From assembly GCA_021774625.1 (NCBI GenBank), contig JAJFIV010000007.1, positions 62,001 to 126,000 of the forward strand: DNA of 64,000 bases, read 5' to 3'. Positions within the stretch are counted from its first letter, which is position 1, and each line of letters starts with the position of its first letter. Positions 48,716 to 62,865 of the stretch are shown one piece after another. Below the pieces are notes generated by a model. That model was not told the origin of the DNA and did not search any database. It saw only the letters and a program-made list of their open reading frames with translations. The translations under genes and the position numbers were made by a program. Origin of the DNA: Alphaproteobacteria bacterium (GTDB taxonomy: Bacteria; Pseudomonadota; Alphaproteobacteria; Sphingomonadales; JAKSBY01).

Positions 48716-49789
48716 TCAGCGCTCGGTCAGCCGCATTTCGATGCGGCGGTTGCGGATGTTGGCCTCGGGCCCGCTGCCGGGATCGATGGGATGAAATTCG
48801 CCGAACCCGGTTGCCGCCAGTTTTTCCGGCGGCAATCCTTCCGCCACCAAAAACCGCACCACGGAAATTGCCCGCGCCGTCGACAATTCCCAGTTTGAGG
48901 GGAATCTTTCCGTGGCTATCGGCAGCGCATCCGTATGGCCGTCAACGCGCAGAATCCAGCTGAGGTCGTCGGGGATATTGGCGGAAATTTCGAGCAGCGT
49001 GGCGGTAAATTTACGCAACTGTTCCCGCCCTTCAGCGCCCAGATCCGCACTGCCGGAGGCGAAGAAAAGTTCTGACTGAAAGACAAAGCGGTCGCCTTCT
49101 ATGCGGATGTCCGGGCGGTTGCCAAGCACCTGACGCAGCCTGCCGTAAAATTCGGAACGGAATCCGGCAAGTTCTTCCACCTTGGCTGCCAGCGCTACAT
49201 TCAGCCGTTTGCCGAGATCGGCAATGATGGTCTGCTGCTCCTCGTCCTTGGCTTCGGAGGCTTCCAGCGCCGCTTCCAGCCGGGCCAGTTGCTGACGCAG
49301 CGCATTAATCCCCGCATTCAGGCGGTCGATTTCCGCCTGCGCCGCCCGGGTCAGCTCTTTTTCCCTGGCAAGGTCGGTATCGTAACGCTGCTGCAGCTGG
49401 GCAAGGGCACTTCCGGTTTCGCGGGCCTGGTCCAGCCGGATTCCGGCATTGTCCAGGGCGGTCTGCATCTCGGCCATGCGGGCCGACATTTCTTCCCGGT
49501 CGAGATTGGATGACTGAAGGCTGGTCGACAACTGACCGATATTCAGCCGCAAATCCGCATTGGCCTGTTGCTCAAGCCGCAGCAGATTGCCGAGTTCCGC
49601 CACCTGATCCCTGAGCCGGTCCAGCGCCTCATCACGGCCCGACAGGGCCTGTCCGAGAAAAAACTGGGCCAGAACAAAGACCGACAGTAGAAAAATAATC
49701 ACCAGCAAAAGGGTCGAGAGCGCGTCGACAAACCCCGGCCAGGTATTTTCCTGTCCGCCGCCACGGCGTCTCATGCCCCGGCTGATCAT
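48716..49789 (-). CDS. MotB/OmpA-like peptidoglycan-binding protein
   Basis: A 357-residue inner-membrane protein with a single N-terminal helix (residues 20-44) that begins PGFVDALSTLLLVIIFLL. D22 sits where MotB has its proton-carrying Asp. A long coiled coil follows (about residues 50-200, rich in Leu/Gln/Glu heptads), and a C-terminal OmpA domain with VDGHTDALPI, NWELSTARAISVVRFL and NIRNRRIEMRL. It overlaps the MotA-like gene by four bases, so both probably form one ion-driven stator. This is a chromosomal class in alphaproteobacteria, separate from flagella. No flagellar genes are nearby. Confidence 0.88.
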   Translation of the reverse strand: MISRGMRRRGGGQENTWPGFVDALSTLLLVIIFLLSVFVLAQFFLGQALSGRDEALDRLRDQVAELGNLLRLEQQANADLRLNIGQLSTSLQSSNLDREEMSARMAEMQTALDNAGIRLDQARETGSALAQLQQRYDTDLAREKELTRAAQAEIDRLNAGINALRQQLARLEAALEASEAKDEEQQTIIADLGKRLNVALAAKVEELAGFRSEFYGRLRQVLGNRPDIRIEGDRFVFQSELFFASGSADLGAEGREQLRKFTATLLEISANIPDDLSWILRVDGHTDALPIATERFPSNWELSTARAISVVRFLVAEGLPPEKLAATGFGEFHPIDPGSGPEANIRNRRIEMRLTER

Positions 49790-50892
49790 GGCCGGCCTTC
49801 TCCGCCTGGGCCCCGGTCTTTGTGTGACATTTTCAGATCCATTGCCGTGCCGATGGTGCGGGCCAGCAGTTTGATTTCCGAACGCAATTCACCGATCAGT
49901 TGTTCGCGTCCCTTGGTCTGTTCCTCCAGCACGCGCTTCAGATGCACATCCAGATTGCGCAGATGGCCGCGCGATGCGTCATCCAGCACGGGTTCATTCC
50001 GCCGTCTCCCCATCTGGTCGGCAAACTCTGCAAGCCGTTCGGAAAGGCCCAAAAGCGCGCCGTTGATATCGCCGCGTTCCTCCTCGGATCGGGCAAACAG
50101 CCGTTGCAGATTATCCAGGCTGTCTGCCGACTGTTCCAACAGGGCGCTGACGTAAGCGGGCACGGACGCATCATCGCCTTCCTCCAAAGCCGGCCCGCCG
50201 CGGCCCAGCTGAGTGACACTGGAAAGCCACTCCTCCAGATCGTTATAAAACCGGTTCTGGGCCTGACCCGCCTGCAGATCGAGAAATCCCAGCACCACCG
50301 ATCCGGCAAGCCCGAAAAGCGAGGAGGAAAAAGCCGTTGCCATGCCGGACAAGGGCGTTTCCAGCCCGCGCTTCAGGTCGTCAAACATGATGGTGAGGTC
50401 ACTGGCGCCGACAGACAGGGAACGGATGGTCTCGCCAATGGAACTGATGGTCCCCAACAGTCCCCAGAAAGTCCCCAAAAGGCCAAGGAAAATCAGCAGC
50501 CCGATCAGGTAACGGGAAATTTCCCGCCCCTCGTCCAGCCGCGACGCAATGCCATCCAGCAGTGATCGCATGGAGAGTGTGGAAAGCCTCATGCGGCCCT
50601 GTTTTTCCCCCAGCAGTGACGCCATGGGCGCAAGCAGTCTGGGTGGTGCCGATATAGAGGTGACGGATTCTTCCCGGCGGTAGCTTTCAATCCATTCGAG
50701 TTCCGGCTTCAGCATCAGCACCTGGCGAAAGACAAAAATGATCCCCACAACCAATGTTGCAAGAATGACCCCGTTCAGGCCTGCATTCGCCATAAACGCG
50801 TCCCGCAAAGGGAGGATCAGCGCAATGGCCAGCGCCACCACGACGGCGACAAAAAGACCCATATTCCTGAGATATCGATTCGGTTTGGTCAT
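49786..50892 (-). CDS. MotA/ExbB-like proton-channel protein
   Basis: A 368-residue inner-membrane protein with hydrophobic segments near residues 10-30, 38-56, 128-150 and 190-210. The MotA/TolQ/ExbB pore pattern is GLLIFLGLLGTFWGLLGTIS and GLETPLSGMATAFSSSLFGL, the latter with the pore-lining Thr/Ser. The C-terminal part is long and helical, with charged coiled-coil stretches and the tail KMSHKDRGPGGEGRP. It pairs with the MotB-like gene through an ATGA overlap. What its ion flow drives is unknown. Confidence 0.88.
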   Translation of the reverse strand: MTKPNRYLRNMGLFVAVVVALAIALILPLRDAFMANAGLNGVILATLVVGIIFVFRQVLMLKPELEWIESYRREESVTSISAPPRLLAPMASLLGEKQGRMRLSTLSMRSLLDGIASRLDEGREISRYLIGLLIFLGLLGTFWGLLGTISSIGETIRSLSVGASDLTIMFDDLKRGLETPLSGMATAFSSSLFGLAGSVVLGFLDLQAGQAQNRFYNDLEEWLSSVTQLGRGGPALEEGDDASVPAYVSALLEQSADSLDNLQRLFARSEEERGDINGALLGLSERLAEFADQMGRRRNEPVLDDASRGHLRNLDVHLKRVLEEQTKGREQLIGELRSEIKLLARTIGTAMDLKMSHKDRGPGGEGRP

Positions 50893-50961
50893 AACGGTCC
50901 TCTGGCTTGCGGATTTGCGGACGATGGTGATTTTACGGTCTTTTCGGCGATTGGCAACTGG

Positions 50962-51525
50962 TCAAGGTGAAATGGGCCTGATGTCAACACGTTCCTCAGG
51001 TCCGCCGTCCCCGGCCACCCCCAGCGCCTTAAGATCAATCTGTTCCGGCAAAACGCCTTCTTCAATCAGAAAACCGCGGACAATCAACGCCCTTCTAAAA
51101 GATAATTTTACCGCGTCGTTGTTGGAACTGGCAGCATTATCGCCGCCCGCATAGGCAGTGATCAGGATACGGTCTTCCGTACCGATCAATCGCAGCGCCA
51201 ATTTGCTGAGCGCTTCGCCTTCCTGAACTGTAAAAGCGATATAATTCTGCGGATAGACAAACCGCAAGGGGGAAATGGGCGGGCGAATAATCTCCAAAGG
51301 CGCCACTTCGAATGGCCGGGCCGGGGGCGAGTTTTGTTTTTCCGGACCTTCATCTGTTCCGGACGGGACGAGAGGCGGTATTTTTTCAGGAAGTGGCGCG
51401 TCTTTAGCCTTCGCCTTTTTCAAGGGCCAGCCAACCGGTTCGTCCTGCTGCGCAGCGGGTGTCTGACCGCCTGCGGCGGCCGGAAAGCCCAATAAAATTG
51501 CGGCGGTGATAAAAATTCTTACCAC
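50962..51525 (-). CDS. Exported OmpA-like C-terminal domain protein
   Basis: A 187-residue product with signal peptide IFITAAILLGFPAAAGGQ, a Pro/Lys-rich linker to about residue 80, and a C-terminal domain of OmpA-like build (IAFTVQEGEALSKLALRL, ILITAYAGGDNAASSNNDAV, SFRRALIVRGFLIEEGV). The start is GTG at 51525, the base immediately after the Lrp-type stop, so it is read with that gene. The peptidoglycan-contact residues are diverged. It probably belongs with the MotA/MotB-like pair downstream (69-base gap). Confidence 0.78.
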   Translation of the reverse strand: MVRIFITAAILLGFPAAAGGQTPAAQQDEPVGWPLKKAKAKDAPLPEKIPPLVPSGTDEGPEKQNSPPARPFEVAPLEIIRPPISPLRFVYPQNYIAFTVQEGEALSKLALRLIGTEDRILITAYAGGDNAASSNNDAVKLSFRRALIVRGFLIEEGVLPEQIDLKALGVAGDGGPEERVDIRPISP

Positions 51526-51951
51526 TTAACGCTCGAACTTGGTCGATAAGACAATGGAAGAGGTGGTCTTTTCAATCCCGCCGATACGGCCGATTTCATC
51601 CAGAGTCTGGTCAATTTCCTCCGTGGTTTCCGCAGCCAGTACCGCAATCAGGTCATATTCGCCGCTGATGGCGTAAAGTGACCGCACATTTAGACTGTTT
51701 TTCAGGGCTGAAACCACTTTATCCGATTGTTTGGGCTCTACACTGACCATCACATGGGCGGATATTTTACGGCGTGCGAAGTCCTTGTTAAGCCGGATGG
51801 TATAGCCCGCAATGATCTTTCGGCGTTCCAGTTTTTCAAGCCGGCTCTGAACGGTGGAGCGGGAAAGCTGGAGATTGCGCGCCAGTGAAGATGTCGGCAT
51901 GCGGGCATTGTTTTCCAGAAGGGTAATAAGCTTATGGTCGATTTCATCCAT
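51526..51951 (-). CDS. Lrp/AsnC family transcriptional regulator
   Basis: A 141-residue regulator with N-terminal winged helix (MDEIDHKLITLLENNARMPT, SSLARNLQLSRSTVQSRLEK) and C-terminal RAM ligand domain (YAISGEYDLIAVLAAETTEE). Amino-acid-binding Lrp proteins usually regulate neighbours. The gene is divergent from the lysine-degradation-type cluster and shares its intergenic region, so that cluster is the first candidate target. AAGG precedes the ATG. Its stop abuts the OmpA-like gene. Confidence 0.93.
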   Translation of the reverse strand: MDEIDHKLITLLENNARMPTSSLARNLQLSRSTVQSRLEKLERRKIIAGYTIRLNKDFARRKISAHVMVSVEPKQSDKVVSALKNSLNVRSLYAISGEYDLIAVLAAETTEEIDQTLDEIGRIGGIEKTTSSIVLSTKFER

Positions 51952-51966
51952 GAGGCACCTTGGAGA

Positions 51967-52052
51967 ATTTCGTCAAATTTACACATTAAGCATCAAAATA
52001 TCTGAATAATATCACAAAATCGACGAAATGAGCGCTTCTTTTTGACGTCAAA
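51967..52052. promoter_or_regulatory. Candidate Lrp operators between lrp and the lysine cluster
   Basis: ATTTCGTC (51967-51974) and GACGAAAT (52022-52029) are an inverted pair 47 bases apart. TTTGACGTCAAA (52041-52052) is a perfect 12-bp palindrome, and CGTCAAAT occurs at 51971-51978. The repeated CGTCAA half-site on an AT-rich stretch of the divergent promoter region is what a multi-dimer Lrp-type regulator would bind. No boxes were assigned. Confidence 0.5.
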
Positions 52053-52110
52053 TAACCATATTTTTAATGAAAATAGTGAAGATGCGGAAAATATAAAAGG
52101 AACGAGGGTT

Positions 52111-53250
52111 ATGGCAAAAAAAATCGTGCTGTTCGGTGCCGGAAAAATTGGTGAAATGATCGCCACCCTGCTGTCAGGTTCAGGCGATTATGAAATAACC
52201 GCCGTTGACCGGGACGCCGATAACCTTGACCGCCTGCAACGCATTCCTCATGTCAAAACGAAAATTGTCGATATCACGGATCACGGACAGCTGACAGGCA
52301 TCCTGAAAGGGAAATTCGCCGCTCTCAGCGCCAGTCCATACCAGTTGACCCCGGTGATTGCCCGCGCGGCCAAAGAAGCCGGGACGCATTATTTTGATCT
52401 GACGGAAGATGTGGAAAGCACCCGTATTGTAAAACAGCTGGCTGAAGGCGCGGCAACCGCCTTTCTGCCGCAATGCGGTCTTGCGCCGGGGTTTATTTCC
52501 ATCGTCGCCCACGACATCGCCAAAAAATTCGACAGATTGCATGAAGTCAGGATGCGGGTCGGCGCCCTGCCAAAATACCCGACCAACGCGCTGAAATATA
52601 ATCTGACCTGGTCGACGGACGGACTGATCAACGAATACTGCAATTCGTGCGAGGCAATTGTGGATGGCGAGATGCGGGAGGTTCCGGCGCTGGAGGAAAT
52701 CGAAGCCTTCTCGCTGGACGGCATTGCTTACGAGGCGTTCAATACCTCGGGGGGACTGGGCACATTGTGGGAAACCTTATCGGGCAAGGTCAACAACCTT
52801 AATTACCGTACCGTTCGTTATCCCGGCCACCGGGATATCGTCAAAATGCTGATCCATGACCTCAGACTTGGCGAACGGCGGGAACTGCTTAAAAATATCT
52901 TTGAACATGCGCTGCCCATGACCCTGCAGGACGTGGTGCTGATTTTCGTCACCGCGAGCGGCTATCAGCAGGGCCGTTTCATGCAGGAAAGTTATGCGCA
53001 AAAAGTCTATAGCCGGGAAATCGGCGGCAAGGTCTGGAGCGCCATTCAGATCACGACGGCGTCAGGCATTTGCGCCATGCTGGACCTGCTGGCTGAAGAC
53101 AAGCTTCCGCAAAAGGGGTTTGTGCGTCAGGAACAGGCTGATCTCGGCGCATTTATTTCCAATCGCTTTGGAAAGAATTATGTGTTTGACGGGGACAGCG
53201 GTTCAATCTTATCAACCTTGGGCAAAGAACAAGAACCACAATTGGTGTAA
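52111..53250 (+). CDS. Saccharopine dehydrogenase / L-lysine 6-dehydrogenase family protein
   Basis: A 379-residue NAD(P)-dependent enzyme from the ATG at 52111 (GAGG upstream; the frame opens earlier). Rossmann KIVLFGAGKIGEMIATLLSG, then the substrate-side blocks QCGLAPGFISIVAHDIA, YNLTWSTDGLINEYCNSCEA, NTSGGLGTLWETL and NYRTVRYPGHRDIVKM. Length and these blocks look more like lysine 6-dehydrogenase, which makes aminoadipate semialdehyde directly, than the 450-residue saccharopine reductase; I cannot exclude the latter. It is first in a three-gene string ending with the semialdehyde dehydrogenase, facing lrp. Confidence 0.85.
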   Translation: MAKKIVLFGAGKIGEMIATLLSGSGDYEITAVDRDADNLDRLQRIPHVKTKIVDITDHGQLTGILKGKFAALSASPYQLTPVIARAAKEAGTHYFDLTEDVESTRIVKQLAEGAATAFLPQCGLAPGFISIVAHDIAKKFDRLHEVRMRVGALPKYPTNALKYNLTWSTDGLINEYCNSCEAIVDGEMREVPALEEIEAFSLDGIAYEAFNTSGGLGTLWETLSGKVNNLNYRTVRYPGHRDIVKMLIHDLRLGERRELLKNIFEHALPMTLQDVVLIFVTASGYQQGRFMQESYAQKVYSREIGGKVWSAIQITTASGICAMLDLLAEDKLPQKGFVRQEQADLGAFISNRFGKNYVFDGDSGSILSTLGKEQEPQLV

Positions 53251-53252
53251 TC

Positions 53253-54917
53253 TTGAACGCAAGGACACAATCAGGCGGTCAGGCATTGGTTTCGGCGCTT
53301 CTGGCCCATGGAACCGATATGGCCTTTTGTGTCCCCGGCGAAAGCTATCTGGCGGCGCTTGACGCCCTGTATGATGTTCAGGATCATATCAGGCTGGTCA
53401 GCTGCCGCCACGAGGGCGGCGCCGCCAATATGGCGGAAGCCTATGGCAAACTGACCGGCAGGCCGGGCATCTGTTTCGTCACCCGCGGTCCCGGTGCGGC
53501 CAATGCCAGTATCGGCGTCCATACCGCCTTTCAGGATTCGACGCCGATGATCCTGTTTGTCGGGCAGGTCGCATCCGATCAGCGCGACCGGGAAGCCTTT
53601 CAGGAAGTTAATTTCGAAGCATTTTTCGGCCCCCTCGCCAAATGGGCGGCGGAAATCCAAAGCGCGGACCGGATCGCGGAATATGTTGGCCGGGCTTTCC
53701 AGACGGCTGTCAGCGGCAGGCCGGGTCCTGTGGTTCTTGCCCTGCCGGAAGATATGCTGTCCGGCCCGGCACCGGTACAGAAGTCCCGGCATCATCCGCC
53801 AGTCAAAGCCCATCCCGGCGCGGATGATCTGGCAAGAATCAAGAAAGCGCTGGAAACCGCGACCCGGCCACTTGTTATTCTTGGCGGATCGGGCTGGAAT
53901 AAGGAAGCGATTGCCGATATCCGGCACTTTCTGGAAGCCAATCATCTGCCCGCGGGCGCCGCTTTCCGCTGCCAGGATCTTATAGACAACCGGCATGCCA
54001 ATTATGCGGGCGATATCGGCATCGGCATCAATCCGAAACTGGCGGAGCGTGTGAAGAAGGCCGATCTGATCCTCGCCATCGGCCCGCGGCTTGGCGAGAT
54101 GACGACGGGCGGCTACACGCTTATCCAATCACCTGTGCCGCCGCAAAAGCTTGTTCATATTCATGCCGGTGCGGATGAATTGGGCCGGGTTTTTCAGGGC
54201 AATATCCTGGTCAATGCCGGGCCCGCTGAATTCGCTGCGGCCGTCCGCGACATGCAAATCGCCGGGGCTGAAAAATGGCGGAGCCGGACCCGGCAGGCCC
54301 GCGCCGAATATGAAGACTGGATCACGCCAAGGCCTCATCCCGGCCCGGTGCAGCTGCCGGAAATTTACGCCTATATGCGGGAACACCTGCCGGAGGACAG
54401 TATTTTCACCAATGGCGCAGGGAATTACACCGCCTGGCTGCACCGCTATTATCAGTATCGCAGCTTTAAAACCCAGCTTGCCCCGACATCGGGCGCCATG
54501 GGCTATGGCGTTCCGGCCGCCATTGCGGCAAAAATCACCCATCCTGATCGCACCGTGATCTGCGCAGCGGGCGACGGCTGTTTTATGATGACGGCTCAGG
54601 AACTGGCAACGGCTGTCCAGTATCAGGCCAATGTCATATTCCTGGTTTTTAACAACAGCATGTACGGCACCATCCGCATGCATCAGGAAAAGCACTATCC
54701 GGGCCGGGTGGTGGGCACCGATCTGGTCAATCCGGACTTTGTTGCCTATGCCGTGGCCTTTGGCGCTTACGGTGAAAAAATTGCATCGACCGATGACTTT
54801 CCCGGTGCCCTGCGGCGCGCCATGGAAGCCGGCAAACCGGCGCTGATTGAAATTCCGGTTCTGCCGGATGCCATCAGCACCCAGACAACCCTCAGCGATT
54901 TGAAACCCAGAAAATAA
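53253..54917 (+). CDS. TPP-dependent enzyme, acetolactate-synthase-like, in the lysine cluster
   Basis: A 554-residue thiamine-diphosphate enzyme in the decarboxylase/synthase superfamily. The catalytic Glu is E54 in CRHEGGAANMAEAYGKLTG. GPGAANASIGVHTAFQDSTP lies in the PYR domain. The Mg/TPP motif is AAGDGCFMMTAQELATA through VFNNSMYGTIRMHQEKH, near residue 440. The start is TTG at 53253, two bases past the previous stop, with no strong ribosome-binding site, so translation is likely coupled. The neighbours degrade lysine, and a 2-keto acid decarboxylation step (for example of 2-oxoadipate) is a guess. Confidence 0.9.
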   Translation: MNARTQSGGQALVSALLAHGTDMAFCVPGESYLAALDALYDVQDHIRLVSCRHEGGAANMAEAYGKLTGRPGICFVTRGPGAANASIGVHTAFQDSTPMILFVGQVASDQRDREAFQEVNFEAFFGPLAKWAAEIQSADRIAEYVGRAFQTAVSGRPGPVVLALPEDMLSGPAPVQKSRHHPPVKAHPGADDLARIKKALETATRPLVILGGSGWNKEAIADIRHFLEANHLPAGAAFRCQDLIDNRHANYAGDIGIGINPKLAERVKKADLILAIGPRLGEMTTGGYTLIQSPVPPQKLVHIHAGADELGRVFQGNILVNAGPAEFAAAVRDMQIAGAEKWRSRTRQARAEYEDWITPRPHPGPVQLPEIYAYMREHLPEDSIFTNGAGNYTAWLHRYYQYRSFKTQLAPTSGAMGYGVPAAIAAKITHPDRTVICAAGDGCFMMTAQELATAVQYQANVIFLVFNNSMYGTIRMHQEKHYPGRVVGTDLVNPDFVAYAVAFGAYGEKIASTDDFPGALRRAMEAGKPALIEIPVLPDAISTQTTLSDLKPRK

Positions 54918-54930
54918 TTGAAAGCGAAAC

Positions 54931-56430
54931 ATGACCATCCAAACACTCTTTCAGGAAATGCAGCTGGATATGGCCCTGATTTCGGGCGGTGATCTGGCTG
55001 TCCGCTCACCCATTGACGGGGTGGAAATCGGTCAGGTCAGACAGGATAAAGCGGGCGATATCAACACAAAAATTGCCACAGCCGTCAGCGCCTTTGCCGC
55101 ATGGCGCGATGTACCGGCCCCGCAGCGCGGCGAACTGATCCGCCGCTATGGCGAAGAACTGAGAAAATACAAGGACGCGCTGGGCCGTCTGGTCACGCTC
55201 GAATGCGGCAAAATCTATCAGGAGGGCCTGGGCGAGGTTCAGGAAATGATTGATATCTGCGACTTTGCCGTTGGTCTTTCGCGCCAGCTTTATGGCCTGA
55301 CCATTGCGTCGGAAAGACCGGGTCACAAAATGCGTGAAAACTGGCACCCGTTGGGTCCGGCCGGCGTGATCTCCGCTTTTAATTTTCCGGTTGCGGTCTG
55401 GTCTTGGAATACGGCTCTGGCCATTGTGTGCGGCGATCCGGTTCTGTGGAAACCGTCGGAAAAAACACCCATTACCGCCATTGCCTGTTCGGCCCTGTTC
55501 GACCGGGTCGCCGGGAATTTTGCTGATGCGCCGGCCGGCCTGAACCAGCTTTTGATCGGCGGGCGCGATGTCGGCGAAGCGCTGGTGGCTGACCCCAGGG
55601 TTCCTCTGATCAGCGCCACCGGTTCCACCGCCATGGGCCGGATGGTCGGCCCCAGGGTCGCGAGCCGGTTTGGCCGTTCAATCCTGGAGCTAGGCGGCAA
55701 CAATGCCATTATTGTCACCCCGACGGCGGATCTGGATCTGGCGCTTCAGGGCATTGTGTTCGGCGCCGTCGGCACCTGTGGCCAGCGCTGCACATCAACC
55801 CGCCGTCTGTTTCTGCATGACAGCATTTATGATGCCTTTCTGCCCCGCCTGAAGACCGCTTATGACAGCGTTTCCATCGGCGATCCTCTGGATAGCAAAA
55901 CCCTGGTGGGACCCCTGATCGACCGGGCGGCCTATGAAGGGATGGAACGGGCGCTGGAACTGGCCAGAGGCGATGTTGGCGCCGTTCACGGCGGGGGGCG
56001 GGTGCTCGAAAACAAATATCCCGATGCGTATTATGTCCGCCCAGCACTTGTGGAAATGCCGGACCAGACCCAGACAGTCTGTGAAGAAACCTTCGCCCCC
56101 ATTCTTTATGTCATGAAATATAAGGACATAAACGGCGCCATCGCAAAACAGAATGCGGTGCCGCAGGGTCTGTCATCCGCTATTTTCACCAACGATGTCC
56201 GGGAAGCTGAACAATTCACCTCAGCCGCGGGCAGTGATTGCGGCATTGCCAATGTCAATATCGGGACATCGGGCGCTGAAATCGGCGGCGCGTTTGGCGG
56301 TGAAAAGGAAACCGGCGGCGGCCGGGAATCCGGTTCTGATTCCTGGAAGGCCTATATGCGGCGTTCCACTTCCACAGTGAATTATTCCAAAGACTTGCCG
56401 CTGGCCCAGGGAATAACCTTCGAACTCTGA
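54931..56430 (+). CDS. amaB: L-aminoadipate-semialdehyde dehydrogenase, ALDH7 family
   Basis: A 499-residue NAD-dependent aldehyde dehydrogenase of the ALDH7 (antiquitin) branch, oxidising 2-aminoadipate semialdehyde to 2-aminoadipate. Visible: ISAFNFPVAVWSWN, the general-base Glu in SILELGGNNAIIV, nucleophile C287 in GTCGQRCTSTRRLF, and the ALDH7 C-terminal run FGGEKETGGGRESGSD plus KAYMRRSTSTVNYSKDLPLA. The family assignment is firm; the substrate is supported by the lysine-dehydrogenase-like gene two genes upstream. It lies 13 bases after the TPP-enzyme gene. Confidence 0.93.
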   Translation: MTIQTLFQEMQLDMALISGGDLAVRSPIDGVEIGQVRQDKAGDINTKIATAVSAFAAWRDVPAPQRGELIRRYGEELRKYKDALGRLVTLECGKIYQEGLGEVQEMIDICDFAVGLSRQLYGLTIASERPGHKMRENWHPLGPAGVISAFNFPVAVWSWNTALAIVCGDPVLWKPSEKTPITAIACSALFDRVAGNFADAPAGLNQLLIGGRDVGEALVADPRVPLISATGSTAMGRMVGPRVASRFGRSILELGGNNAIIVTPTADLDLALQGIVFGAVGTCGQRCTSTRRLFLHDSIYDAFLPRLKTAYDSVSIGDPLDSKTLVGPLIDRAAYEGMERALELARGDVGAVHGGGRVLENKYPDAYYVRPALVEMPDQTQTVCEETFAPILYVMKYKDINGAIAKQNAVPQGLSSAIFTNDVREAEQFTSAAGSDCGIANVNIGTSGAEIGGAFGGEKETGGGRESGSDSWKAYMRRSTSTVNYSKDLPLAQGITFEL

Positions 56431-56552: not shown

Positions 56553-59500
56553 ATGAAATGGACCGAGCAAAGCCTGAAAAATCCGGCGGCGGTCGCGGTG
56601 ATAGCCGTGATCATTATTTTGCTGGGCGCGGTAACGGTTTTTCGCCTGCCGGTCCAGTTATTTCCCGATATTGACCGGCCGCAGATCAGCGTCAACACAG
56701 GCTGGCGTGCGGCTTCCCCGCAGGAAGTTGAATCGGAAATCACCGAACCGGTGGAAGAGGTCCTTCAGGGCATCCCCGGTCTCGAAGAGCTTGTCAGCAA
56801 CTCCAATGCCGGCGGCAGCAATATCAATCTGACTTTCGCCCTTGGCAGCGACATGAATAAAACACTGCTGGAAGTGATCAGCCGTTTGAACCGGCTGCGT
56901 CCGCTGCCCGCCGATTCTGATCCGCCAACGGTGCAACTGGGCGGATTCCGGGGCGATGCGGAATCCCTGATCTGGTATTTTGTCCAGACCGTGCCGGGAA
57001 ATCCGCACCCCATGTCCGATTATAGCCGCTTTATTGAAGACGTGGTCGTGCCCCGCATCGAATCGATACCCGGTGTGTCCGGCGCCAACTTTCTGCCCTC
57101 CGACGGACAGGAAGAATTACAGGTCATCTTTGACCCTTATCGGGCGGCGGAACTCGGGATTGATCTGACGGCGATCCCGGCTCTGATCGGCAACACAAAT
57201 GATGTTTCCGGCGGGTTTACCAATGTCGGACGCAGACAATACACCATCCGTTTTGAAGGCCGCTATGATCCCATCCAGCTGGGAGGTCTGATTTTGGACT
57301 GGCGGGACGGCACCCCCATCCTGCTGGGCGATATCGCCGAGATCCGGGTCGGACCCGGCAGACGCCGTGGCGTGACCTACCAGAACGGCAATCCGGCCTC
57401 CGCTATTCAGATGTTGAAGGATAATTCGACCAATGTGCTGGCGACCCTGAAACAGGTCAAGGCGGTGGCGGATGAATTGAATGAGACCGTTCTGAAGGAA
57501 CAGGGCCTCAGGATGGAGAAATCGTTCGATCCATCTGTTTTTATTATGCGGGCGATTAATCTTCTGACCAATAATCTGATCATTGGCGTACTGCTGGCTG
57601 TGGGAATCCTGTGGTGGTTTCTGCGCCATGGCCGGGCGACACTTTTGATTGCCCTGGCGATCCCGATATCCATCTTCGCCACCTTTATTTTTTTGGGACT
57701 GGCCGGACGTTCGCTGAACGCCATCTCGCTTGCGGGACTGGCATTCGCCACCGGCATGGTGCTGGACGCCGCCATTGTGGTGCTGGAAAATGTCGTCAGG
57801 CTGCGGGAAAAAGGTCTGAAGGCGGATGACGCCAGCAATCAGGGGGCATCCCAGGTCTGGGGGGCCTTGATTGCCTCGACGGCAACCACAGTTGCGATCT
57901 TTCTGCCGGTGCTGTTTTTAAAGGATGTGGAAGGCCAGCTGTTTGCCGACCTGGCGCTGACCATTGCCATTGGGGTCACTATTTCCCTTGTGGTGGCCGC
58001 CACCATCCTGCCAACCGCGGCGAAAGTCTGGCTGAAAAAAATGCCGCCCAAAGACGTGAATGCCGCCCGCTGGGACCGCATATCCGGGCGCATTATGCGC
58101 GTGACCGACACAAATGCAAAACGCGTGTTCTGGATTGCCGGGCTGATTACAATACCGCTGATCGCCACCTGGCTGCTGTTGCCGCCGCTCAACTATCTGC
58201 CGCCGGTCAAGCGGGATGCGGTCGACACCAATATGCTGCTGCCGGCGGGAGTGACACTGGATTTTATCGACCGGGAATATGCCCAGGTGGTGAATGAGCG
58301 GCTGCTTCCCTATCTCGAAGGCGAGAAGGAGCCAAAACTTCTCAATTTTTATTTTGTGACCTTTGGCGCAAACTTTGGCCAGTTCGCCGCGCGCGCCGAA
58401 GACCAGGACGACGTTGAAGAACTGATGCAGGTTGTCCGCGAGGAAATTGCTGTGGGCCTGCCCGACCTTATCACATTTACCAGTCAGAGTGATCTTTTCG
58501 GCGGATTCGGCTCACAGGGCAATATCGCCCTTCATATCCAGTCGTCCGACCCGCAGGCCTTGCGGGCGGCAACACAGGTCGGGCTCGACCAGATACGGGA
58601 AAAGTTCGACAACGCCAATGTCAACCCGCAGCCCGACCCCAACGCGGTTGCTCCGGAAATCCGTATGATCCCCAATGACAACCGGATCAGGGAGGCCGGC
58701 TGGAACCGCCAGCGTGTGGCTAGCATCGTGCGGGCGCTCGGGGACGGCCTGTGGCTTGGTGAATATTTCGACGGGGAAAAAAGGCTGGATGTTATTCTGA
58801 AGGCCGAAGGGTTCAACAATCCGGAAGAATTACAGGGCGTGCCTTTGGCAACACCTGCCGGCGGCATTCTCCCGCTCGGTGAGGTGGTCGATGTCACCCG
58901 CGCCACGGGGCCGGTCGGCATCCGGCGGTTTAATGGCCGCCGGACCATCACCCTGCAGTTCAGCCCGCCGCCCGGTATTGCCCTTGAAGACGCCCTCGCC
59001 ATCCTGAGGAATGACGTGGAACCTCTGATACGAGCCGCACTGCCGGCGGACGGCAATATTCTCTACGGCGGCAGCGCCGACAGTATGAACCGGGCTATCG
59101 GCACCCTTGGCGGCAACTTTCTGCTGGCGCTGGGGCTTTTGTTCCTGATAATGGCGGCGCTGTTCAAATCGGTGAAGGATTCACTGCTGGTGGTCATTTC
59201 CATCCCGCTGGCCACCGTGGGTGGGGTAGCGGCGCTGCGCATCCTCAATCTCTTCACCTTTCAGCCGATGGATTTATTGACCATGATCGGCTTTATTATC
59301 CTGCTGGGACTTGTGGTGAATAACGCCATCCTGCTGGTGGTCCGCACCCGCCAATCGGAGGAGGAAGGCCTCAACCGCCGCGATGCGGTGGCGGAAGCGC
59401 TCCGGCTCCGGTTACGCCCCATTTTCATGTCAACCTTGACCAGCATCTTCGGTATGCTGCCGCTGGTATTGTTTCCGGGCATCGGCAGCGCCATTTACCG

Positions 59501-59648
59501 CGGCATGGCCGCCGCCATCGCCGGCGGCATGAGCATCAGCATGGTCTTTACCCTGATCCTGTTGCCAAGCCTGCTGCAACTGACTGGCAAATCCCAATCC
59601 AGGGAAGCAGATACTCGGCCCTTGCCCCTCCGCCGGGCAGCCGAATAA
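56553..59648 (+). CDS. RND efflux permease, first of three
   Basis: A 1031-residue inner-membrane transporter of the RND superfamily, with AAGGA before the ATG. It has two halves each of one plus five helices and large periplasmic loops. The start MKWTEQSLKNPAAVAVIAVI and LPVQLFPDIDRPQISV are family-like. TM4 reads FATGMVLDAAIVVLENVVRL, where the AcrB DD pair is D405 then Ala, the single-Asp arrangement seen in CusA-type permeases. TM10 and TM11 regions (GFIILLGLVVNNAILLV) are intact. No membrane-fusion protein or outer-membrane gene is in view on either side. Confidence 0.93.
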   Translation: MKWTEQSLKNPAAVAVIAVIIILLGAVTVFRLPVQLFPDIDRPQISVNTGWRAASPQEVESEITEPVEEVLQGIPGLEELVSNSNAGGSNINLTFALGSDMNKTLLEVISRLNRLRPLPADSDPPTVQLGGFRGDAESLIWYFVQTVPGNPHPMSDYSRFIEDVVVPRIESIPGVSGANFLPSDGQEELQVIFDPYRAAELGIDLTAIPALIGNTNDVSGGFTNVGRRQYTIRFEGRYDPIQLGGLILDWRDGTPILLGDIAEIRVGPGRRRGVTYQNGNPASAIQMLKDNSTNVLATLKQVKAVADELNETVLKEQGLRMEKSFDPSVFIMRAINLLTNNLIIGVLLAVGILWWFLRHGRATLLIALAIPISIFATFIFLGLAGRSLNAISLAGLAFATGMVLDAAIVVLENVVRLREKGLKADDASNQGASQVWGALIASTATTVAIFLPVLFLKDVEGQLFADLALTIAIGVTISLVVAATILPTAAKVWLKKMPPKDVNAARWDRISGRIMRVTDTNAKRVFWIAGLITIPLIATWLLLPPLNYLPPVKRDAVDTNMLLPAGVTLDFIDREYAQVVNERLLPYLEGEKEPKLLNFYFVTFGANFGQFAARAEDQDDVEELMQVVREEIAVGLPDLITFTSQSDLFGGFGSQGNIALHIQSSDPQALRAATQVGLDQIREKFDNANVNPQPDPNAVAPEIRMIPNDNRIREAGWNRQRVASIVRALGDGLWLGEYFDGEKRLDVILKAEGFNNPEELQGVPLATPAGGILPLGEVVDVTRATGPVGIRRFNGRRTITLQFSPPPGIALEDALAILRNDVEPLIRAALPADGNILYGGSADSMNRAIGTLGGNFLLALGLLFLIMAALFKSVKDSLLVVISIPLATVGGVAALRILNLFTFQPMDLLTMIGFIILLGLVVNNAILLVVRTRQSEEEGLNRRDAVAEALRLRLRPIFMSTLTSIFGMLPLVLFPGIGSAIYRGMAAAIAGGMSISMVFTLILLPSLLQLTGKSQSREADTRPLPLRRAAE

Positions 59649-59769: not shown

Positions 59770-62700
59770 ATGCGCTGGACGGATCGCAGTCTCAAAAACC
59801 CTGCCGCGGTGATCGTTGTTGTAACAATTATGCTGCTATTGGGCGTGGTCACCATCTTTCGCCTCCCGGTGCAGCTTCTCCCCAATATCGAACGGCCGGT
59901 GATGCTGGTTTCGACCGTCTGGCCGGGCGCTTCGCCGCGGGAAATTGAATCTGAAATCGGCGCCCCGCTGGAGGAGGTTCTGCGCGGGATGCCGGGTCTT
60001 GAGAAAATACAGGCATGGGCGCCGCCTAATAGCAGCTTTATCAATCTGACCTTCGGACTTGCCACCGATATGGATCAGGCGATGCTGGAAGTGATCAGCC
60101 GTCTGAACCGTCTGCCGGCTTTGCCCGCCGATGCCGATCCGCCAACCCTGACCCTTGGCGGCTGGAACAATACCAGCGATGCGCTGATCGATTATTTCAT
60201 TCAGTTGGCTCCAGGCGCCGAAGGTGCCATGGCGGATCATGAAAATTTCGTCGAAGATATTATCCTGCCCCGGCTCGAATCCCAGTATGGCGTTGCCAGC
60301 GTTGATTTGTGGCTGAATTCCGGGACCGGGGATCAGCTGGATATTGCCTTCGATCCTATCAAGGCGGCGCAGACGGGTATTGATCTTTCCGCCGTGTCGG
60401 CCCAGATCGGCCGGTCAAACGATGTATCCGGCGGCTTTGTCGATGTCGGCAGACGGCAATATACCCTGCGCTTCGAAGGCCGGTATTCCCCGGAACAAAT
60501 GGCTGATCTGATCCTGGAATGGCGGGACGGCAGCCCTATCCGCCTCGGCGAAATTGCGACAATTTTCGTCAGTAAGGGCCGCCGTGACGGCTTTATCTTC
60601 CAAAATGGCCGGCCCGCCGTGCGTCTCGGCGTGAAGAAGGAATCCGGGGCCAATGTGCTGCGGTCCCTGGGCGGCGTGAAGGCCGTTGTCGATGAACTGA
60701 ATGCAGGTCTGCTGAAAGACCGCGGCCTTTACATGCAGAATTCCTATGACCCCTCGGTCTTTATCCAGAGAGCCATCCGGCTGCTGTCGAGCAACCTGGT
60801 TTTGGGTATGTTTTTTGCCGTTGGCATATTGTGGTGGTTTCTTCGTCAGGCGCGCGCAACAATTTTGATTGCCATCACCATTCCGATATCGCTGCTGACC
60901 ACCTTCATTGTGCTTGGTCTTGCGGGCCGGACGCTGAATGTCATTTCTCTTGCGGGTCTGGCATTCGCCACCGGGATGGTGCTGGATGCCGCCATTGTGG
61001 TATTGGAAAATATTGTGCGGCTCAAGGAAAAGGGGCTTGGCAGTTCCGAGGCTGCAAGCAAAGGCTCGGCCCAGGTCTGGGGTGCGCTTTTTGCCTCCAC
61101 CGCGACCACTGTGGCGATTTTCATTCCCATTATGTTTTTGAAGGATGTCGAAGGTCAGATGTTTGCCGATCTGGCGCTGACCATTGCCATCGGCGTATCC
61201 GTTTCGCTTGTGGTTGCGGTGACCGTCCTGCCAACAGCCGCGATGCTGTGGCTGAAAAAACTGCCCGCACCCAAGGCGCAGAAAAACCGCCTGGAAGGAA
61301 TGGCCGGCTTCATCATGGGGCTGACCAATAATAATTTCAAACGGGCCGGGTGGATTAGCGGATTGATCGGGCTTTCGCTGACAGCGTCTCTGCTGCTTAT
61401 CCCGAGCATGAATTATCTGCCCCCGGTCAAACGGGACGCGCTGACGGCCTGGGTATTCTTCCCGCCCGGCTCTAATGTGGAATTTGCCGAAACCGAGCTG
61501 GCAGACGTAATGATGGCCCGCCTTGATCCCTATCTGAAAGGCGAAAAACAGCCGCAAATTCTGGACTATAACCTTTTTTCCTGGCCGGCGATGATTGGCT
61601 CCAGCGTCAGTGTGCGGGCGACAGACCCGGCCGACCTGCCGGAACTTCAGCGTATTCTGTATGAGGAAGTCCTGACCGGCCTGCCCGACGTTTCCGCCTT
61701 TGTTATCCAGCAAAGCCTGTTTGGCGGTTTCAACAGCAGCGACAGTGTGGAGTTCAATATCCATTCGGCTGATCTGAGTGAACTGAAAACCGTCGCCATT
61801 GAGGCAATGGATTTGATCGCTGCCGCCATTCCCGGCGCGCCCATTAACCCAAGCCCCGACCCCAATATTGCCTCGCCGGAGCTGGAATTCATTCCCAACG
61901 ACCGGCGCCTGCTGGAAGTGGGATGGCGGCGCACGGATCTTGCCAATGTAGTGCGCACGCTTGGCACCGGAGTCTGGCTCGGCGAATATTTTAACGGCGA
62001 AAAAAGACTGGATGTTTTCTTTAAGACGGATGCCGAACAGAATCCGGAGACCATGATCAATATGCCCGTTGCCACACCCTTGGGCGGGATCGTGCCGTTG
62101 GGTGAACTGGTGGAGATGCGCGAAAATCTGGGCCCCGGCGCGATTATCCGCTACGATGGCCGCCGCACCATGTCGATGGATGTCAATCCACCGCCGGGCA
62201 TGACCCTGGAGGAGCTGATTACAATCATCAAGGCCGAGGTCGAGCCGCAAATCCTCGCCATGCTGCCGCCGGACGGCGCCGTAACTTATGGCGGCAGCGC
62301 CGGTGATCTCGCCCGGGCCGTGGAAACACTCACCGCCAATTTCCTGATCGCGCTGGCTCTTTTATTCCTGATCATGGCGGCGCTGTTCCGTTCGCCGAAG
62401 GATGCGCTGCTGGTGTTGATCTCGATACCATTAGCGACGGTCGGCGGGCTGGCGCTTTTACAGATACTGGACCTGCCGCTGGATTTGCTGACCATGATCG
62501 GCTTTATTATCCTGCTGGGTCTGGTGGTGAATAACGCCATTCTGCTGGTGGTGCAGACCCGCAGTTCGGAGAAGAGCGGCCTGAGCAGAGAAGAAGCGGT
62601 CAAGGCGGCGCTCCGGCTGCGTCTGCGCCCGATCTTTATGTCAACCTTCACATCGCTGGCGGGCATGCTGCCATTGCTGATCCTGCCCGGCGCGGGCAGT

Positions 62701-62865
62701 GATATCTATCGCGGCATGGCGGCGGCCATTGTGGGTGGAATGAGCGTCAGCATGGTCTTTACGCTGGTTCTCCTGCCGAGCCTCATTCAGATCGAATGGA
62801 AGACGGTTACCTCCTTTTCCAATAACAATACTTCCCGGCGGCGCGTGCAGGCTCCGGCTGAGTAA
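59770..62865 (+). CDS. RND efflux permease, second of three
   Basis: A 1031-residue permease of the same length and layout as its upstream neighbour. It begins MRWTDRSLKNPAAVIVVVTI and has LPNIERPVMLVSTVWPGASP. TM4 FATGMVLDAAIVVLENIVRL contains D406 followed by Ala, as in the first copy. Periplasmic-loop sequence is clearly diverged from the first copy (for instance AWAPPNSSFINL), so the copies are paralogues rather than a recent duplication. A 121-base gap precedes it. The ribosome-binding site AGGATG is close to the ATG. Confidence 0.93.
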   Translation: MRWTDRSLKNPAAVIVVVTIMLLLGVVTIFRLPVQLLPNIERPVMLVSTVWPGASPREIESEIGAPLEEVLRGMPGLEKIQAWAPPNSSFINLTFGLATDMDQAMLEVISRLNRLPALPADADPPTLTLGGWNNTSDALIDYFIQLAPGAEGAMADHENFVEDIILPRLESQYGVASVDLWLNSGTGDQLDIAFDPIKAAQTGIDLSAVSAQIGRSNDVSGGFVDVGRRQYTLRFEGRYSPEQMADLILEWRDGSPIRLGEIATIFVSKGRRDGFIFQNGRPAVRLGVKKESGANVLRSLGGVKAVVDELNAGLLKDRGLYMQNSYDPSVFIQRAIRLLSSNLVLGMFFAVGILWWFLRQARATILIAITIPISLLTTFIVLGLAGRTLNVISLAGLAFATGMVLDAAIVVLENIVRLKEKGLGSSEAASKGSAQVWGALFASTATTVAIFIPIMFLKDVEGQMFADLALTIAIGVSVSLVVAVTVLPTAAMLWLKKLPAPKAQKNRLEGMAGFIMGLTNNNFKRAGWISGLIGLSLTASLLLIPSMNYLPPVKRDALTAWVFFPPGSNVEFAETELADVMMARLDPYLKGEKQPQILDYNLFSWPAMIGSSVSVRATDPADLPELQRILYEEVLTGLPDVSAFVIQQSLFGGFNSSDSVEFNIHSADLSELKTVAIEAMDLIAAAIPGAPINPSPDPNIASPELEFIPNDRRLLEVGWRRTDLANVVRTLGTGVWLGEYFNGEKRLDVFFKTDAEQNPETMINMPVATPLGGIVPLGELVEMRENLGPGAIIRYDGRRTMSMDVNPPPGMTLEELITIIKAEVEPQILAMLPPDGAVTYGGSAGDLARAVETLTANFLIALALLFLIMAALFRSPKDALLVLISIPLATVGGLALLQILDLPLDLLTMIGFIILLGLVVNNAILLVVQTRSSEKSGLSREEAVKAALRLRLRPIFMSTFTSLAGMLPLLILPGAGSDIYRGMAAAIVGGMSVSMVFTLVLLPSLIQIEWKTVTSFSNNNTSRRRVQAPAE

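Follow-up and report, generated by a model that had tools for sequence, protein, structure and literature searches.

A thiamine pyrophosphate (TPP)-dependent enzyme encoded in a lysine-type operon is probably a stand-alone, non-oxidative 2-oxoadipate decarboxylase, as suggested by gene neighbourhoods in many bacteria. Its gene (53253..54917, + strand; TTG start, 554 amino acids) is a real and intact open reading frame in the window, that is, the whole 64,000-nucleotide stretch of alphaproteobacterial DNA that was analysed. In the proposed route, L-lysine would be converted to piperideine-6-carboxylate by a lysine 6-dehydrogenase (LysDH), and then to 2-aminoadipate by an L-piperideine-6-carboxylate dehydrogenase (P6CDH). 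An aminotransferase encoded elsewhere in the genome would yield 2-oxoadipate, which the TPP enzyme would split into glutarate semialdehyde and CO2. Either P6CDH itself, an ALDH7 enzyme, or some general semialdehyde dehydrogenase would oxidize the semialdehyde to glutarate, a succinate-glutarate CoA-transferase-like protein would activate this to glutaryl-CoA, and the glutaryl-CoA dehydrogenase GcdH would produce crotonyl-CoA. The substrate, product and direction of the TPP enzyme, as well as the aldehyde dehydrogenase acting on the semialdehyde, are what we infer from genomic sequences.

The decarboxylase reading is favoured because the gene is linked to genes acting just before the step (lysine dehydrogenase, P6CDH and, in Variovorax, an aminotransferase) and just after it (a CoA-transferase-like gene and GcdH). 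It is further favoured because some genomes with no TPP gene at these lysine genes have HglS next to them instead, because the window's genome encodes GcdH and a CoA-transferase-like protein but not HglS, and because the genes for the former two are commoner in TPP-positive genomes. A preliminary description of this DNA had guessed at decarboxylation of 2-oxoadipate to a semialdehyde; the linkage on both sides of the step and the exchange with HglS lend this guess genomic support.

The TPP gene is preceded by a LysDH-like gene (52111..53250, +; 379 amino acids) and followed by an ALDH7-type L-piperideine-6-carboxylate/aminoadipate-semialdehyde dehydrogenase gene, P6CDH (54931..56430, +). The former belongs to the saccharopine-dehydrogenase superfamily (Sacchrp_dh_NADP and Sacchrp_dh_C domains), with PH1688 as its closest full-length solved structure (79 bits). 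The latter scores 813 bits against NF050084 (L-piperidine-6-carboxylate dehydrogenase; cut-off 730) and matches ALDH7/antiquitin structures. Thus, the lysine-type neighbours named in the preliminary description are borne out, as are the distances of two and 13 bases given there: the LysDH stop codon TAA (53248-53250) is followed by 2 nucleotides and then the TTG, and the P6CDH ATG at 54931 lies 13 nucleotides past the TPP-gene stop. Because the TTG has no obvious ribosome-binding site, translation of the TPP gene is likely coupled to that of LysDH upstream. The operon has no aminotransferase gene. LysDH-like genes adjoin P6CDH in several genomes; in Ruegeria pomeroyi, LysDH (SPO0234) and AASADH (SPO0235), both reannotated from experimental data, have consecutive locus tags (PMC4334477).

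An Lrp/AsnC-family gene (51526..51951, − strand; Pfam AsnC_trans_reg and an HTH_AsnC-type domain) is transcribed divergently and is the probable regulator of the operon; its closest NCBIfam model is LysM, at 97 bits and below the LysM cut-off. The AT-rich region between the divergent genes (51952..52110) is, from its position, the likely promoter/operator of both operon and regulator. Adjoining the Lrp gene, positions 48716-51525 (−) encode an OmpA/MotB-like peptidoglycan-binding protein (PRK09039), a MotA/ZorA-like membrane protein and an OmpA-domain protein. Downstream of P6CDH and on the same strand are two tandem RND-type permease genes (56553-59648 and 59770-62865, +), and an RND gene likewise follows the TPP and P6CDH genes at locus L137.

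The preliminary description had called the enzyme acetolactate-synthase-like, which holds for its fold and fails for orthology with a characterised acetolactate synthase. The protein carries TPP_enzyme_N, M and C domains and no PF07063 domain, and the family overlooked earlier is PRK08199/NF006052, matched over residues 3-552, the full length, at 873 bits (cut-off 539). This NCBIfam subfamily is named merely "thiamine pyrophosphate protein" and carries no function; it is present in 123/289 sampled alphaproteobacterial genomes and also in Betaproteobacteria. The score against the biosynthetic acetolactate synthase model TIGR00118 is 320 bits, under the cut-off of 538, and among the best 25 of 56 NCBIfam matches the protein is below the cut-off of every acetolactate synthase model. 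The same 25 matches do not include the oxalyl-CoA decarboxylase model, and solved oxalyl-CoA-decarboxylase-like chains reach at most 160 bits. Identity to E. coli IlvI is 28%, and the score against NF005712 (AruI-type 5-guanidino-2-oxopentanoate decarboxylase) is 249 bits, under the cut-off of 500.

Fourteen residues are invariant in 173 aligned homologues: E30, S31, E54, D95, R113, F116, Q117, E118, K130, N391, M416, H477, Q478 and R485. Among them, E54 is the counterpart of the cofactor-activating Glu (173/173). Presumably, the PGES motif (E30) stands where pyruvate decarboxylase has its acidic PGD motif, and we take T473/H477 to stand where benzoylformate decarboxylase has A460/F464. The AlphaFold model has a pLDDT of 91.9, with low confidence in loop 476-478 within the invariant MHQE motif. 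A structure search with this model returned acetolactate-synthase-type folds, and the fold does not tell substrates apart.

The preliminary description had reckoned with a characterised acetolactate synthase that has a conserved small subunit. What was found is the sub-threshold TIGR00118 score and no small-subunit gene beside the TPP gene, whose neighbours are LysDH and P6CDH; ilvH had no match within the window. These observations also argue against the very unlikely possibility that the enzyme, being among the closest relatives of acetolactate synthase (AHAS) in the window's genome, stands in for it there. This substitution would agree with the finding that the genome, rated 100% complete, lacks a standard AHAS large subunit: it has no TIGR00118 match over the cut-off, whereas 11/11 other tested genomes do. 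However, genomes G116 and G535 share the same operon and yet have their own AHAS. In addition, a search of 1.26 Mb, or 42%, of this genome with E. coli queries detected none of leuABCD, ilvC, ilvD, ilvE and ilvH, although an alphaproteobacterial ilvC could diverge too far for an E. coli query. The organism is therefore probably a branched-chain amino acid auxotroph, which is suggestive only but likelier than replacement of acetolactate synthase by the TPP enzyme.

Returning to the decarboxylase reading, we examined the DNA around 80 homologues from alphaproteobacteria, 80 named relatives, 7 annotated plasmid loci and 6 further linked loci. Genes were called with a composition-scored caller, as longest-ORF calling lost about one third of 80 TPP genes to antisense ORFs in GC-rich loci. 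The trio of LysDH, TPP and P6CDH genes, whose co-occurrence across genomes the preliminary description had proposed to check, recurs in this order in L058, L139 and L225, each with the Lrp gene in the same divergent position. This recurrence, Lrp and LysDH included, indicates that the arrangement in the window is not due to chance. The TPP gene followed by P6CDH is found in L137, L059 and L178/L226. L058, L139, L225, L137 and the window form one clade (5 rows, support 100).

Other arrangements bring in further genes of the route. The Variovorax type (L199 and relatives, and L228) has the order IclR regulator, P6CDH, ABC binding protein, aminotransferase and TPP gene; since relatives of this aminotransferase turned up in all tested genomes, its presence elsewhere is uninformative. 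In the glutarate type, a LysR gene lies divergent from the TPP gene, which GcdH follows, as in Bordetella and Achromobacter; the TPP gene followed by GcdH is also found in other Burkholderiaceae MAGs and in Zwartia, giving 11 loci of this type. The dehydrogenase in these loci was identified as GcdH by its 737 bits against solved structures of glutaryl-CoA dehydrogenases. In Pseudomonas putida, gcdH-gcoT is adjoined by the LysR-type gene gcdR (PMC6667623). The most complete arrangement is that of L224 (genome G585), in which P6CDH, GcdH, CoA-transferase and TPP genes form a single run, the last two ORFs overlapping by 8 bp. Besides transamination and aldehyde oxidation, the sole step between P6CDH and the CoA-transferase that the other genes of this run leave uncovered is the one proposed for the TPP enzyme. 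L093 has GcdH, CoA-transferase and TPP genes in this order, and in L060 and L229 the CoA-transferase gene precedes the TPP gene with P6CDH nearby.

The CoA-transferases of L093 and L060 score 523 and 578 bits, respectively, against the succinate-glutarate model, both under its strict cut-off of 750. Oxalate degradation, with the CaiB-type protein acting as a formyl-CoA transferase, was considered for these neighbours and judged less likely, since the CoA:oxalate model gives only 293 and 270 bits. L094, where the oxalate model scores higher, was excluded from the linked count. As for the window's own genome, its GcdH (C23) shares 74% identity with that of Bordetella and, like the CoA-transferase-like gene (C27), lies away from the operon, and PF07063, the HglS domain, was found nowhere in it.

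The linkage exceeds random expectation. In the first sample, P6CDH is present in 32/80 TPP-positive genomes and is no more than about 5 kb away from the TPP gene in 4 of them, the window included; in the second sample, this proximity is seen in 6/37 genomes with P6CDH. Pooling both samples and excluding the window's genome leaves 9/68 linked, against 0.18 expected under random placement. The corresponding Poisson P of about 4e-13 is indicative, as the nine genomes, drawn from about six families, do not count as fully independent. At least nine changes (seven for P6CDH alone) are needed to explain the linked state on a FastTree tree, and gene orders differ between clades. Among alphaproteobacterial genomes, GcdH is present in 114/123 TPP-positive vs 49/166 TPP-negative ones, and the CoA-transferase-like gene in 67/123 vs 17/166; these counts are uncorrected for phylogeny and genome size, and small genomes tend to have neither gene. 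GcdH is present in 75/80 of the second sample.

Such recurrence, far above chance, weighs against the highly improbable reading that the adjacency is incidental or regulatory, with the 2-oxoglutarate dehydrogenase complex making glutaryl-CoA from 2-oxoadipate and the TPP enzyme unrelated to the route. Two points speak for it: 2-oxoacid dehydrogenase complexes are known to convert 2-oxoadipate to glutaryl-CoA, and most family members are unlinked, with lysine or glutarate genes adjoining the TPP gene in 36/173 rows. However, such a dehydrogenase route would not pass through free glutarate, so that the CoA-transferase-like gene of L224, L093 and L060 would have no lysine role.

The proposed substrate is also that of HglS, which converts 2-oxoadipate to D-2-hydroxyglutarate (PMC7286885). 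HglS (PF07063) is present in merely 10/289 genomes. In L233 and L234, HglS lies divergent from a LysR gene and is followed by a FAD-linked oxidase, P6CDH and an aminotransferase sharing 64-66% identity with its counterpart in the TPP operon of Variovorax; in L232, the Lrp gene separates LysDH and P6CDH from a short HglS gene and a FAD-linked oxidase gene. Since the same lysine genes are accompanied by either HglS (L232-L234) or the TPP enzyme, the two appear to be alternative exits from 2-oxoadipate. The case for strict mutual exclusion is weakened by some of these HglS genomes, which carry a PRK08199 gene at another site. The exchange with HglS bears as well on the possibility that the TPP enzyme decarboxylates 2-oxo-6-aminocaproate, formed by lysine alpha-oxidation or transamination, to 5-aminopentanal, which would lead to glutarate through 5-aminovalerate. 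This pathway likewise ends at glutarate and so fits the GcdH and CoA-transferase neighbours. We assign it a very low probability, as the commonest neighbours, LysDH and P6CDH, are part of the aminoadipate branch and would be superfluous, and as the HglS found next to these genes elsewhere has 2-oxoadipate as its substrate (PMC7286885).

It is important to note that the family is broader than its lysine-linked members. Plasmid-borne members in Paracoccus, Comamonas and Klebsiella (L220, L222, L223) lie in other catabolic contexts, with tricarboxylate transporter, 5-dehydro-4-deoxyglucarate dehydratase, ALDH and RraA genes; different members may therefore differ in activity or substrate despite sharing the same pocket-type residues. 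The enzyme might accordingly decarboxylate or carboligate another 2-oxo acid, for example 2-oxoglutarate or 2-oxo diacids more generally, its place in the lysine operon reflecting a general role. This reading is compatible with the members that lie in unrelated operons, in part together with ALDH genes, with pocket-type residues invariant family-wide and with a fold nearest generic acetolactate synthases, but we regard it as unlikely. Separate clades, with differing gene orders, repeatedly show the TPP gene linked to P6CDH, GcdH and the CoA-transferase-like gene, and what these neighbours have in common is 2-oxoadipate and glutarate, not 2-oxoglutarate.

Two further contexts were observed. In one clade (L086, L109 and L112), the TPP gene is close to a BioY biotin-transporter gene, confirmed in L086, and L109 and L112 also have carboxylase/acyl-CoA dehydrogenase genes beside it; a connection with biotin or with the breakdown of leucine is possible. 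Seven alphaproteobacterial loci (L075, L078, L079, L069, L090, L101 and L087) have a short NIPSNAP-like ORF only a few genes away from the TPP gene.

If the 2-oxoadipate decarboxylase reading is true, a TPP family fills the step from 2-oxoadipate to glutarate in bacteria with no HglS, and free glutarate is explained as a lysine intermediate. Lysine breakdown would also be connected to the glutaryl-CoA that alphaproteobacteria use for biotin (PMC7645780). In the part of that paper considered here, lysine, 2-oxoadipate and glutarate all feed glutaryl-CoA/biotin synthesis in Agrobacterium, and its CaiB activates free glutarate to glutaryl-CoA; a 2-oxoadipate-to-glutarate step would therefore be needed in at least one alphaproteobacterium. 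That part of the source names no enzyme for the step. More tentatively, and with rather less confidence than we place in the window's enzyme, PRK08199 might consist mainly of 2-oxoadipate decarboxylases, forming an O2-independent bacterial exit in addition to HglS and the dehydrogenase complex. ALDH7 would then oxidize both aminoadipate and glutarate semialdehydes, and in alphaproteobacteria glutarate would be supplied for the glutaryl-CoA of BioZ biotin synthesis. In the open-access literature, beyond which, in most subscription journals, prior work may exist, our searches turned up neither a report of a bacterial 2-oxoadipate decarboxylase nor a description of a lysine-to-glutarate route by a TPP decarboxylase.

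Compared with known systems, the window protein is a full-length member of PRK08199/NF006052, a family carrying no function, for whose lysine- or glutarate-linked members one is now proposed. It has the same fold as the acetolactate synthases (AlsS, IlvB/IlvI) but no small subunit and a different context. In AruI-type pathways (PRK07524/NF005712), an amino acid is converted to a 2-oxo acid, which a TPP decarboxylase turns into an aldehyde for oxidation by an ALDH; the overall logic is that of the proposed route, although the window's TPP enzyme is not a member of this type and would act on a different substrate. The 2-oxoadipate/2-oxoglutarate dehydrogenase complex likewise removes C1 from 2-oxoadipate with TPP and ends at glutaryl-CoA, but it is a multi-enzyme, lipoyl- and CoA-dependent, oxidative system, whereas the window protein is stand-alone and would be followed by an ALDH and a CoA-transferase. 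Finally, HglS (DUF1338/PF07063), the 2-oxoadipate dioxygenase/decarboxylase of the Pseudomonas putida D-lysine route, acts on the substrate proposed here for the TPP enzyme and has a corresponding place beside P6CDH or LysDH in other genomes. It is unrelated to the TPP enzyme as a protein and is Fe(II)- and O2-dependent, making D-2-hydroxyglutarate (PMC7286885), whereas the TPP enzyme would yield glutarate semialdehyde without O2.
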